From positions 186,001-250,000 of the forward strand of contig NZ_JAPFQM010000001.1 in NCBI RefSeq assembly GCF_026241205.1: a stretch of DNA of 64,000 nucleotides. Reading direction: 5' to 3'. Every line of letters begins with the position of its first letter. Position 1 is the first letter of the stretch. The position numbers were made by a program, and so were the translations under genes. The notes under the pieces were generated by a model. It searched no databases. It was not told the DNA's origin and was given only the letters and a program-made list of their open reading frames with translations. This stretch comes from Thermomicrobium sp. 4228-Ro. Lineage in GTDB: Bacteria > Chloroflexota > Chloroflexia > Thermomicrobiales > Thermomicrobiaceae. Positions 1,127-10,888 of this stretch are shown here, one piece after another.

Positions 1127-3405
1127 CGAACCGAGAGTCTCTCCGGAGCTGCATAGACCGTCACGACTCCACGCTGGAAGACTGGAGCCCAACCGAACTG
1201 TTCCAGGACAGCGGCCAGGCGCTCGGGTGCAGTGTTCTCCAACAGCCGACACGCAGGCCCGAGACCATTCCGCTCCAACAAGCCGATATAGACATACCCC
1301 ACTCGGTACTGAGTGAGCACCTCTGTGACTGTCGCCGGGGTGGGATTCTCGAAGACGGCTCGTACTACTCGTTGTCGTTGCTCCAGCTCCTGGAGGGCGC
1401 GGGTGTCGCCCCGCCGCCACTGGAACTCGTGACCATCCCAGCCGATGACGGTCGGACGGCCAGTGGCCATCGATACCCGATCGTGTGGAAGATCGTCGAC
1501 CGATCCGTACGAACACCCTGGAGCTTCGAGAATCACGGTATCGGACGGCGTCCGTGCCCGCAACCATTCGATGGCTGCGTATTCGTCCGGGTGGCTCGTC
1601 GCCAGGTAGGACAAACCGTCGAGTCCCTTACGGTGGGTGAAACCGTCCGTCCACTTCCAGGCGGAGAGCGGCACGTAGAGCATGCCGAGAGCGAGTGCAA
1701 CCAGTGTCCCGGTGATGAGGACTCGAGGCGGTCGACCTCCAGTCGGCACGCCGACGAACGCCACCGGCAGCGCCAGCGCCTGATAGCACCAGGCATCGAA
1801 AGACACTTTGAAGACCGTGTTCATGCGGTCACCGAAAACATCGCGGAGAAAGAAGAACTCGATTCCCAGGAGCGCGAGCCACGCCGCTCCGAGTAATCCG
1901 AACGCGAGACGCATTCCTGGCTGGAGACACCGATCGCTGTGCAGGACCAGCCCGACCGCACCGAGAAGCAGGCCGAACAGAAACAGGGCAGGGGTCCGAC
2001 TCGCCAACGCGAGGACGAGGACAAATCCAGCGAAGCCGACGACGAGTCCGGTTCGCGGACGAACCGCCCCGGGCAGGCTCCGAACGGCTTGCCCGACGAC
2101 GAGCAGAGCGGGGAGCAAGAATGTCCCGTAGGCGCGCAGAAGCTCGCCGAACGAACTTCGCTCCCAGACGACGAGCCCGACCGTTCGCACGATCCAGCTC
2201 ACCACGGGTAGCCGAGCGACGACGGGCGGTAGCTCCTCGGCCACCAGCCCATACGACTGGACGTAGGTCATCTGGAACGGCAGTGCAACGACGACCGCGG
2301 GAACGAGAACAGCAGCAACGGCCTGGACTCGCTGACGCCCGCTCCAACGTTTCCCGACCAGCAGAACCACTGCACCCGCCAGGAGAGCGAGGGGAACGCT
2401 CCAGGTATTCGTGATCCACAGACAACCGAGTGCAACGCCAGTCAGTACACCAGCCCTGACGGGTCGCGGCGACAGGACCGTCGCTGCGAGACCAGCGAGG
2501 TAGCCGACCAGGATCGGGAGCGCGAGGAGATGCGGGTGCAGGTCAGCCAGAATGAACGAGAAAGCGGGAAACTCGTTGATCGTCGGTCGAGGCTGCCCAC
2601 CCCACGGAAATCCGCTATCGACGATCACGCGCGAGGCATTCCACCCCGGACCAGCCCACCAGGAGGCAGACAGGGAAGCAGCGGGATCGCGCAGGAGCCT
2701 CCAGGCCGTTTCCCAGTTTCCTGCACCGACGAGAAAGAGCAGGGCCAACGTACCTGCGACCGCCTGGCGTCGCGGGCTCGCCCCAGTCGCGGCGGCTAGT
2801 GTCCAGGTTACCGCGAATACTCCCATTACGGTGCTCGCGAACAGGGAGGAGAGCGCCAAGTTAAAGGCGATCTCCGGACGCACGCCCAGCACCTTCGCTA
2901 GGCTTGCCATTTCGACGTAGCCGTAAACATAATAATTGATCGGAGCACCAGCGAACCACGGGTCCGGTGGTGGCAGTCGATCAGTCACGATCGATGCAGA
3001 GAGAAAGGCGAGTTCCATCGGCTTCTCGGTGTAGCGGATGTCTGGTGTAAAGGATCGGAAGAATGCGTAGCCCGCGAAGGCCGCCACATGGAAGAGGCTC
3101 AGGGCACCGAAGGTTCGGGTCGTCCCGAGGAGCAGCTGTCGCCGAGATCGCTGGAAGGGTACCAGTCCCCAGCTGATCGCTGTCCAAAGACCGAAGGAAG
3201 CGACAAGAGTCTCGACGGTAAACCGCAGAGGGAAGAGCGTACCGAACCACCAGACAGGCAGGGCGACGAGCGCCGCCCCCAACGTGAGCGCCACCGCACT
3301 GGCCAAACGGTCGTCTGCAGTGGCCACTCGGAGCAGGGGAAGCAAACTCGCCGCGCAAACGAACCACGCAGCCTCCCAGGCGACCGCGGCGAGTACATCG
3401 TGCAT
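1123..3405 (-). CDS. DUF2298 (chlor_Arch_YYY) multi-pass membrane protein
   Basis: A 760-residue polytopic membrane protein rich in long hydrophobic segments along its length. It carries the family signatures EKPMELAF, PDPWFAGAPINYYVYGY (the tyrosine-rich motif that names the chlor_Arch_YYY domain) and a C-terminal soluble part with TGRPTVIGWDGHEFQWR. Function is not established; the architecture resembles GT-C membrane glycosyltransferases. It lies 9 nt downstream of a 1494-aa protein whose C-terminal half is its paralogue, so the two are almost certainly co-transcribed and may act together in building a cell-surface glycan. The start ATG at 3405 gives an immediately hydrophobic N-terminus. 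Confidence 0.88.
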   Translation of the reverse strand: MHDVLAAVAWEAAWFVCAASLLPLLRVATADDRLASAVALTLGAALVALPVWWFGTLFPLRFTVETLVASFGLWTAISWGLVPFQRSRRQLLLGTTRTFGALSLFHVAAFAGYAFFRSFTPDIRYTEKPMELAFLSASIVTDRLPPPDPWFAGAPINYYVYGYVEMASLAKVLGVRPEIAFNLALSSLFASTVMGVFAVTWTLAAATGASPRRQAVAGTLALLFLVGAGNWETAWRLLRDPAASLSASWWAGPGWNASRVIVDSGFPWGGQPRPTINEFPAFSFILADLHPHLLALPILVGYLAGLAATVLSPRPVRAGVLTGVALGCLWITNTWSVPLALLAGAVVLLVGKRWSGRQRVQAVAAVLVPAVVVALPFQMTYVQSYGLVAEELPPVVARLPVVSWIVRTVGLVVWERSSFGELLRAYGTFLLPALLVVGQAVRSLPGAVRPRTGLVVGFAGFVLVLALASRTPALFLFGLLLGAVGLVLHSDRCLQPGMRLAFGLLGAAWLALLGIEFFFLRDVFGDRMNTVFKVSFDAWCYQALALPVAFVGVPTGGRPPRVLITGTLVALALGMLYVPLSAWKWTDGFTHRKGLDGLSYLATSHPDEYAAIEWLRARTPSDTVILEAPGCSYGSVDDLPHDRVSMATGRPTVIGWDGHEFQWRRGDTRALQELEQRQRVVRAVFENPTPATVTEVLTQYRVGYVYIGLLERNGLGPACRLLENTAPERLAAVLEQFGWAPVFQRGVVTVYAAPERLSVR

Positions 3406-7978: not shown

Positions 7979-8935
7979 ATGAGTCAGCAGTACCCTGCAC
8001 CACTGCGGATCGTCTTCTTCGGGACGCCAGCGTTCGCTGTCCCCTCGTTGGAGCGTCTCGCCAGTGAGCCCGACCTCGACGTCGCGTTGGTGGTGACACA
8101 GCCGGATCGGCCAGCGGGTCGGGGACGCGAACGTCGCCCTTCACCGGTCAAACAGCGCGCGATCGCGCTGGGACTTTCGGTCCTGCAACCGGAAACTGTC
8201 CGCGACCCGCTGCTCCTCAGTCGCCTCCGCGACATCGCACCGGCTGTCGGCGTGGTCGTCGCTTACGGTGAGCTGATACCGAAGTCGCTCCTCGACGTTC
8301 CGGCGCATGGATTCCTGAACGTCCACCCCTCGTTACTCCCGAAATACCGCGGCGCGAGCCCGATCCAAGCTGCCATACTCAATGGTGATTCCGAGACGGG
8401 CGTGACGGTCATCCAACTCACACCAGAGCTCGATGCAGGGCCGATCGTGCGCCAGGTGCGGGTAGCGATTTACCCGGATGACACGGCAGCGACGCTCGCT
8501 GAACGCCTGGCTGCCGTGGCAGCCGAACTCTTGCCCGAGACGATCCGACAGTGGGTGGCAGGGACGATCGTTCCGACACCGCAGGATGAGCGGCTCGCGT
8601 CATACACGCGGCCACTCACCAAGGAAGACGGGAGGATCGATTGGACGCGCACAGCCAGAGAAATCGAGCGGCACATCCGAGCGATGCAGCCCTGGCCGGG
8701 AGCATGGACGACGATCTCCGGACGCTTGCTTCGCATCGTCCGCGCACGGGTCGTCGACACGGACGTTGGTCTTCCTCCCGGCTGTCTTTGGCCGACCCGT
8801 GACGCGCTGCTCGTCGCGACTGGTCAGCGAGCGCTGGCGCTCGAACTCGTGCAACCGGAGGGTAAGCGGGTCATGCCAGGACTGGACTGGTGGCGCGGCG
8901 CGCGCCTGGAAGCGGGGTCCTGCTTCGATGCCTGA
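7979..8935 (+). CDS. fmt: Methionyl-tRNA formyltransferase
   Basis: Transfers a formyl group from 10-formyl-THF to Met-tRNA(fMet), enabling bacterial initiation. The 318-aa protein shows the N-terminal IVFFGTPAFAVPSLERL, the catalytic Asn114 and His116 in FLNVHPSLLPKYRGASPIQ, and Asp152 in LDAGPIV, corresponding to E. coli N106/H108/D144. A C-terminal OB-like domain follows. The usual partner def (peptide deformylase) is not adjacent. The stop overlaps the start of the endonuclease V gene by 8 nt. Confidence 0.96.
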   Translation: MSQQYPAPLRIVFFGTPAFAVPSLERLASEPDLDVALVVTQPDRPAGRGRERRPSPVKQRAIALGLSVLQPETVRDPLLLSRLRDIAPAVGVVVAYGELIPKSLLDVPAHGFLNVHPSLLPKYRGASPIQAAILNGDSETGVTVIQLTPELDAGPIVRQVRVAIYPDDTAATLAERLAAVAAELLPETIRQWVAGTIVPTPQDERLASYTRPLTKEDGRIDWTRTAREIERHIRAMQPWPGAWTTISGRLLRIVRARVVDTDVGLPPGCLWPTRDALLVATGQRALALELVQPEGKRVMPGLDWWRGARLEAGSCFDA

Positions 8936-9662
8936 TCACCCTCGGTGGCTGTCCGGTCGACCGATACCTGAACGGATTCCACTCGGTGAACTCGAGCGGC
9001 TCGCGGAGCTCCAGCGCGAACTCGCCTCGAAGGTTGTCGAGTGCCGCCTGGAACGGATGCCGCAGTTCGTCGCCGGAGCGGACGTGCACCTCCGAAACGA
9101 GACAGCCATCGCCGTCGCTGTTCTGCTCGAGCTGCTCGAACACCCCGCGGACGAGAACGATACGAGGCCCCTCGCTCTCCGGGAAGTCGAGTACGTGGCC
9201 GTTCGCACCCGCATCGGTTTCCCGTACATTCCCGGTTTTCTCAGCTTTCGCGAGGCTCCTGTGGTGATCGAGGCGGTCCGAGCTCTCGCGCGCGCACCGG
9301 ACCTGCTGGTTCTCGATGGGCAAGGACGCGCTCATCCCCGCGGTTGCGGGCTCGCGAGTCACGTCGGCGTTCTCCTCGACATTCCCACGATCGGTGCGGC
9401 GAAGTCACGCTTGTACGGTCGTTACCGTGAGCCAGCGAACGAACGAGGAGCCTGGACTCCGATCACCGCTGACAGCACCGTGATCGGTGCGGCTGTCCGC
9501 ACGCGCGTCAACACGAAACCGCTCATCGTGTCCGTGGGCCACCGGATCACGCTTCCGGAGGCGATCCGCTGGACGCTTCGGCTGAGTCGATACCGACTGC
9601 CGGAGCCGACACGTTTGGCGCATCGCTACGCGAAGGAAGCCGTTGCCCTGTTGCACGAATGA
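8928..9662 (+). CDS. nfi: Endonuclease V (deoxyinosine 3' endonuclease)
   Basis: Nicks DNA at the second phosphodiester 3' of deoxyinosine, starting repair of deaminated adenine, a lesion favoured at high temperature. The 244-aa protein has the metal-binding acids D52 (FVAGADVH), E109 (FREAP) and D130 (VLDGQG), the PYIPG wedge at 99-103, and HPRGCGLASHVGVLLDIPTIG. The ATG at 8928 overlaps the fmt stop by 8 nt, so it is translationally coupled to fmt. The usual GVAKS is GAAKS here, a conservative change. Confidence 0.94.
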   Translation: MPDHPRWLSGRPIPERIPLGELERLAELQRELASKVVECRLERMPQFVAGADVHLRNETAIAVAVLLELLEHPADENDTRPLALREVEYVAVRTRIGFPYIPGFLSFREAPVVIEAVRALARAPDLLVLDGQGRAHPRGCGLASHVGVLLDIPTIGAAKSRLYGRYREPANERGAWTPITADSTVIGAAVRTRVNTKPLIVSVGHRITLPEAIRWTLRLSRYRLPEPTRLAHRYAKEAVALLHE

Positions 9663-10090
9663 TCCTCGCATGCTCCCATCGACCTTCCGGGACAATACCT
9701 GCTACCGTCGTCTACCGAGCGGGGGACAACCGCCGCGGTGCAGCACAGAACTCGCGGACTAGGAGACGGCGTTCACTGCCGATCGTATTCTGCGTATAAG
9801 GATCGTTATACGCAGAATACGCGACGAGCGCCATCGCGGTTACGCACCTTCGTTGTTGTGGCTGCTCCGCGTTCTTTCGGTAGATTCGAAGCCGGTGTCG
9901 GCGGCGACCGAGCGCGAACGGACGGCACCCGGCAGAACGTGCTGCTGAACGACCATCTCGCACTGCTGGAGTTGTGTTTCGCCCCTGGACGTGCCCCGCT
10001 TGTCGCGTGTCGCGCCGGTGCGTTACGCTGCAACGCGGCATCGAAGGCGCCACAGCACGTGCGTTCGGTGTGCGTAGCGAGGGAAACTGA
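9663..10090. other. 428-bp gene-free interval between nfi and pgeF
   Basis: No open frame here has a recognisable product. The frames that cross it are short, Arg/Cys-rich and lack a credible ribosome site. Its only clear structure is the 38-bp palindrome at 9784-9821. The right part ends with GAGGGAAACTG just before the pgeF ATG, which may serve as the ribosome site. No convincing consensus promoter was seen. Confidence 0.6.
9784..9821. repeat. Perfect 16-bp inverted repeat with 6-bp centre, dif-like
   Basis: Left arm 9784-9799 and right arm 9806-9821 are exact reverse complements around the 6-bp centre GGATCG. The inner 28 bp fit the Xer/dif layout of 11-bp arm, 6-bp centre, 11-bp arm. Each half reads TTATACGCAGA outward from the centre, one base off the E. 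coli XerC half-site TTATGCGCA over nine positions. There is no T-tract, so it is a poor intrinsic terminator. It could be the chromosomal dif site, another tyrosine-recombinase site, or an operator for a dimeric regulator. Confidence 0.55.
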
Positions 10091-10888
10091 ATGTCGGCGA
10101 TTCCGTATCGCAGTCGAGTGCTGAGCCAGCTCGGTATTCCTCACGGATTTACACGACGGGATCTCCAGCTTCCCGCCGCCGGCGCCACGAGCTGGAACAT
10201 CGGTTACGAGCTCGCGCTCCAGAATCGCCGGATTTGGTGGGCGCGCCTTAGAATTCCGCTCTCAGCGACGGTCTTCCCGTATCAGGTTCATGGCGATCGC
10301 GTCGCACTTGTGACGAGAGCAGACGCTGGCTGTGGCGCCGAGGTGCCGGAGACCGCGATTCCGGACACCGATGCCTTGATCGCCTGCGAGCCAGGGTTGG
10401 CAGTAGCTGTTCAGTGCGCCGATTGCGTCCCCATGCTCGTCTATGCCCCGGATCTTCCTGCGGTCGCTGCGATTCACGCCGGATGGCGAGGGACCGTACG
10501 GTCGATCGCCGCCCGCGTCGTCACGCTTCTCGGCGAACTCGGCCAGCGTTCGCAGCGGTTATCGGTCGTGTTCGGTCCTTCTATCGGGCCCTGTTGCTAC
10601 GAGGTCGGAGAAGAGGTCATCGACGCCTGGCTCAGCATCGCACCGGGAGACCCACCCGGGGCACTCGTCCGATACGGAAGCAGCGTCCATTTCGATCTGT
10701 GGACTGCGAACCGATATCTTCTTGAACGCCTCGGTGTTCCGAGCAATCGCATCGAAGTAGCCGGTGTCTGCACGCGTTGTCGTGCATCGGAGTGGTTTTC
10801 GTATCGCGCCCACGGGCCGCGGACCGGTGCCCAAGCGGCAGTCATCGCGCTCCCGAAGGAGGCGACCGAGGACGATGCTGACGAGTGA
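10091..10888 (+). CDS. pgeF: PgeF / YfiH-type laccase-domain protein
   Basis: Family of zinc/copper-binding 'polyphenol oxidase' proteins; E. coli PgeF (YfiH) edits mis-incorporated L-Ser in peptidoglycan precursors, and eukaryotic homologues are purine nucleoside phosphorylases. The 265-aa protein carries the family metal ligands H67 (QVHGD), C112 (QCADCVP) and H129 (HAGWRGT), plus the GPSIGPCCYEVG signature at 162-173. It overlaps yggS by 14 nt, a common neighbour in Gram-positives and Chloroflexota. The exact substrate here is unproven. Confidence 0.9.
   Translation: MSAIPYRSRVLSQLGIPHGFTRRDLQLPAAGATSWNIGYELALQNRRIWWARLRIPLSATVFPYQVHGDRVALVTRADAGCGAEVPETAIPDTDALIACEPGLAVAVQCADCVPMLVYAPDLPAVAAIHAGWRGTVRSIAARVVTLLGELGQRSQRLSVVFGPSIGPCCYEVGEEVIDAWLSIAPGDPPGALVRYGSSVHFDLWTANRYLLERLGVPSNRIEVAGVCTRCRASEWFSYRAHGPRTGAQAAVIALPKEATEDDADE

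Follow-up and report, generated by a model that had tools for sequence, protein, structure and literature searches.

The window analysed here, a stretch of 64,000 nucleotides from Thermomicrobium sp. 4228-Ro (C1:186001-250000, where C1 is the chromosome contig of 2,046,163 bp), carries a long perfect palindrome between nfi, which ends at 9662, and pgeF, which starts at 10091. It very probably represents the main chromosome's dif site. Such sites, at which Xer recombinases part joined sister chromosomes ahead of cell division, are ordinary in most bacteria. What is mildly surprising in this case is the identity of the two halves of the site, together with the occurrence of a matching site on the second large replicon (contig C6, 907,128 bp). 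The identification draws on sequence, copy number, conservation, position and the presence of the corresponding genes. From these we infer Xer binding, activation by FtsK, strand exchange, and separation of the two replicons by the central bases of their sites.

Positions 9784-9821 read CGTATTCTGCGTATAA GGATCG TTATACGCAGAATACG, a 16-bp inverted repeat without mismatch around a 6-bp centre, and from the centre outward each arm is TTATACGCAGA. The letters therefore confirm what an earlier note on this DNA had said of the repeat and of its matching arms. Its description of the interval as otherwise empty also holds, as the chance open reading frames of the 428-bp gap (9663-10090) have no Pfam match and the gap has no credible Rfam match. 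No other inverted repeat in the list for the window has perfect arms as long, and simple arithmetic with uniform bases gives a chance expectation of ~1.5e-5 per 64 kb for a perfect 16-bp repeat at fixed spacing. When up to three mismatches are allowed, the 24 specified inner arm bases have no second match, whether in the window or in the rest of the genome, and 0 matches in 100 shuffles. The full motif is thus a single copy in the genome, not one of many, a point on which the earlier proposal of a dif site had been made to depend. The genes on either side of the gap, nfi and pgeF, both lie on the + strand, as do fmt and yggS around them, and the closest divergent gene pair (7899/7979) is 1.8 kb off, so that the claim of genes diverging from the palindrome was mistaken. 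A strong hairpin on a DNA or RNA strand (the single-strand DNA fold of 9784-9821 has a z of -5.7) is also what a transcription terminator or a structured RNA between nfi and pgeF would display. Nevertheless, no T-run follows the stem, a terminator scan makes no call, Rfam gives no match and the second site in the genome has a different gene context, making this explanation extremely improbable.

Conservation of the site follows the pattern expected of a tyrosine recombinase target. In same-genus genomes a dif-like site sits upstream of pgeF, within about 0.4-2.2 kb, and three nfi-pgeF gaps from the genus read ATACGCATAA GAAACC TTATGCGCAAA (L003), ATACGCATAA GAGTTC TTATGCGCATA (L004) and CTGCGCATAA CAGTCC TTATGCGCAGC (L008), which is to say that the arms are kept while the centre is altered. 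A relaxed motif is present in all seven genus members (7/7) and in 15 of 61 genomes overall. Leaving the variable arm base unspecified raises this to 46 of 61 genomes in the order, most of which have one or two copies, and a reversed control motif has 0 matches in every one of the 61. The strict 24-base motif of this genome has no match in any relative, the syntenic gaps there holding arm variants, and exact TGCGNATAAGNNNNCTTATNCGCA was not found in viral contigs. The centres of the sites in genomes G000-G020 form two rough classes, one resembling GCGCAC/GTGTGC/CTGCAC and the other GAACCC/GAATCC/CGTTTC, usually with one site of each class per genome. The pgeF-linked chromosomal site has a centre of the second class in the window's genus and of the first class in genera g2, g4 and g5, as if centres had been exchanged between replicons.

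The window site lies at C1:195,791. With GC skew sampled in 20-kb stretches, C1 is positive to ~173 kb and negative from ~205 kb, which places the site (195.8 kb) in the flat transition between, and the skew minimum is broad (~1.1-1.35 Mb), around the point opposite the site (1.219 Mb). At the C1 terminus, no second, better dif was found among matches with up to three mismatches to the relaxed motif. C6 also has one site, at 839,490, reading TGCGCATAA GTGTGC TTATGCGCG. The cumulative skew has a local maximum 2 kb away, at 841,573, and the site lies between the 3' ends of convergent genes (in L082, ends at 2924 on + and 3443 on -, with the site at 2991-3014). Both large replicons accordingly have a single good site, which lies where their GC skew reaches its maximum (terminus), and the proposal of a dif site at the skew switch is upheld for both. 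In a genome of another genus assembled in two contigs (G007), the pgeF-linked site at 1,305,098 likewise lies where the skew of the large contig switches. T. roseum has been described as having scattered origin genes and two replicons that each show mirrored skew, a chromosome of 2.0 Mb and a megaplasmid of 0.92 Mb (PMC2615216). In the present genome, dnaA is found at C1:1833692, ~0.6 Mb from the skew minimum, and consequently does not mark the origin and is not taken as such. In a lineage with scattered origin genes, the two sites place the terminus of each large replicon.

Perfect symmetry, two CGTAT repeats per arm and a location 270 bp ahead of pgeF are also features of an operator, on which a dimeric or tetrameric repressor would control pgeF or nfi. 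This is very unlikely, given that the arms are fixed while the 6-bp centre varies, that each genome has only one or two copies, here both at skew maxima, and that the genome's second site occupies a gap between convergent 3' ends.

Turning to the proteins that would act at the dif site, there are five tyrosine-recombinase matches in the genome and none in the window. Two Xer paralogues are recognised, Xer A at C1:1967176- (XerD profile, 278 bits; XerC, 247 bits) and Xer B at C6:197384- (XerA, 144 bits; XerC, 141 bits). Both are conserved across the order, each in nearly all complete relatives, with Xer B at 52-89% identity in most of them, and this does not support the suggestion, made in the earlier note, of a single Xer or homodimeric recombinase. 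Xer A and Xer B both retain the R, H-x-x-R, H and Y residues, and the beta-hairpin lysines of Xer B are kept in all aligned sequences. An FtsK gamma domain is also present (PF09397, 94 bits, C1:1574133). The presence of Xer A, Xer B and FtsK gamma makes the known FtsK-activated Xer mechanism likely. In all the well-assembled genomes examined (G000 C6:197384, G006 C2:279877, G007 C2:1014199, G009 C1:430996), the Xer B gene lies either on the second replicon or on a different contig from Xer A and pgeF, and chromosome dimer resolution may therefore depend on the second replicon.

In the mechanism we propose, Xer A (XerD-like, from the chromosome) and Xer B (XerC/XerA-like, from the second replicon) would each occupy one 11-bp arm and would together pair both dif copies of a chromosome dimer. 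FtsK would take the sites to the septum, its gamma domain would activate the XerD-like partner, and strands would be exchanged at the edges of the 6-bp centre. Because the C6 dif differs from the chromosomal one in its centre and hardly at all in its arms, the two replicons could share these recombinases without fusing. This suggests that the second replicon is maintained by the chromosome's own machinery and in turn bears one of the two recombinase genes.

A mobile element using Xer or its own integrase might instead have left the palindrome behind as an attachment (att) site that is not a working dif, and a phage-type integrase gene does end within ~100 bp of such a site in four relatives. 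We consider this most improbable, as the window has no tyrosine recombinase match, the site keeps its syntenic position and coincides with the skew switch, and targeting of dif by an element would in itself mean that the target is dif. The four dif-adjacent integrases are related to one another (L084:869-1963, L088:2505-3572, L092:1557-2630 and L095:2643-3713, at 51-52% identity to that of L084), which suggests a family of elements integrating at dif by an integrase of their own.

Several observations weigh against the assignment as dif. Neither Xer A nor Xer B attains the NCBIfam cut-off for XerC or XerD. The beta-hairpin lysine of tyrosine recombinases is catalytic, and in Xer A of the window's genus the sequence is VVRRPNGRERR, where proline (serine in one) takes the position of the E. 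coli XerD hairpin lysine. The right arm repeats the XerC-like arm and is not a classical XerD arm. The small-contig site of G007 is ~160 kb from the skew switch of that contig, so the skew-switch rule is not perfect. A third, weaker match (1 mismatch) is found on the 37.8-kb phage-like contig C8. Finally, G-rich octamers do point toward dif (CGGTGCGG, 182 vs 52), but the polarity of FtsK-orienting polar sequences (KOPS) is inseparable from GC skew and the G-richness of the leading strand, and the KOPS search yielded G-rich words only.

Two of these points have a wider context. The hairpin lysine is also absent from Xer A of some other genera in the family (L077:623-1621 and its orthologues), and more distant families retain a GKGGR-type motif. 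The match on C8 (G000:C8:35876-35899, equivalent to L160:15876-15899) lies immediately downstream of the gene for a large serine recombinase and is possibly a chance occurrence, or an attachment or resolution site.

The symmetry of the arms extends to the family. Among 38 family sites, nine inner arm positions agree between the arms in 31-38 cases each, and the freely varying fifth arm base matches between arms in 32 of the 38, a figure reached in 0 of 20000 permutations, which ignore relatedness and are indicative only. As the arms are nearly identical and co-vary, the inner arms cannot distinguish the two recombinases. With its 16 bp, the window site is symmetric over a greater length than the other same-genus sites compared. 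Exact matches to the core TGCGTATAA-N6-TTATACGCA are found in 81 genome stretches from a wide range of lineages, mainly Paenibacillus, Oscillospiraceae, Eubacteriaceae, Methanoperedens and DPANN archaea, against ~4 expected in 257 Gb by our arithmetic. These sequence matches often have longer symmetric arms (9-22 bp). A speculative and rather unlikely extension is a two-recombinase Xer system with interchangeable dif arms, in which arm sequence would not decide binding, the order of strand exchange would come from the centre or the outer flanks, Xer A (with no hairpin lysine in this genus) would be mainly structural or FtsK-sensing, and Xer B would do the chemistry. Natural sites with symmetric arms are useful for asking how Xer recombinases pick arm and strand order.

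The system described here is a further member of the known dif/Xer systems. Like the classical dif of XerCD-FtsK, the site is 28 bp long with inverted 11-bp arms and a 6-bp centre, and as on C6, classical sites are found on large secondary replicons too (PMC3025954, PMC11724359, PMC13342612). On every enterobacterial replicon above 250 kb, FtsK controls an active XerCD site (PMC11724359), and KOPS polarity inverts at dif on large extrachromosomal replicons (PMC13342612), findings with which the C6 site is consistent. Kono et al. predicted dif across many phyla, in a paper whose main text, as searched, does not name Thermomicrobium (PMC3025954). Classical sites differ in having unlike XerC and XerD arms, whereas here the right arm is a copy of the XerC-like one, and classical Xer proteins usually have the catalytic lysine that is missing from Xer A of this genus. 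The archaeal dif/XerA system has the same 28-bp site, 11-bp arms and 6-bp centre (PMC5357621), and the 9-bp arm cores recur unchanged in contigs of Methanoperedens and DPANN, but archaea use one recombinase and no FtsK, in contrast to the two Xers and FtsK found here. XerS/difSL and XerH/difH are alike in providing Xer-type dimer resolution. In difSL, however, the centre is 11 bp and xerS adjoins the site (PMC5357621), whereas the window site has a 6-bp centre and no recombinase gene nearby. The single-recombinase systems XerS, XerH and archaeal XerA (PMC5357621) do not fit a genome with two Xers. What is less ordinary in the present case is the combination of interchangeable arms with two recombinases, a Xer A devoid of the lysine, and recombinase genes split between replicons.

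Coordinates of the predicted dif site, its parts and the flanking genes in the window
Feature	Position	Strand	Basis or remark
Predicted dif site, 28 bp, TCTGCGTATAA GGATCG TTATACGCAGA	9789..9816	.	Geometry; single full-motif copy; syntenic same-genus copies; GC-skew switch
Left 11-bp recombinase-binding arm (predicted), XerC-like sequence	9789..9799	+	TRCGYATAA core conserved in relatives
6-bp central region GGATCG, asymmetric, unlike GTGTGC of the second replicon	9800..9805	.	Varies among relatives, arms kept
Right 11-bp arm, same as left arm on opposite strand	9806..9816	-	Arm comparison
Whole 16-bp inverted repeat	9784..9821	.	Outer 5 bp per side symmetric here, not in other same-genus sites compared
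nfi, endonuclease V, flanking gene (start codon inferred)	8928..9662	+	NCBIfam PRK11617, E 6e-65, slightly under cut-off
pgeF, peptidoglycan editing factor, flanking gene and syntenic marker	10091..10888	+	TIGR00726, E 2e-45, above cut-off

Most relatives also have a counterpart of a third, divergent tyrosine-recombinase-like protein (L080:849-1991), whose profile matches are weak and shortened (to ~position 160 of 172).
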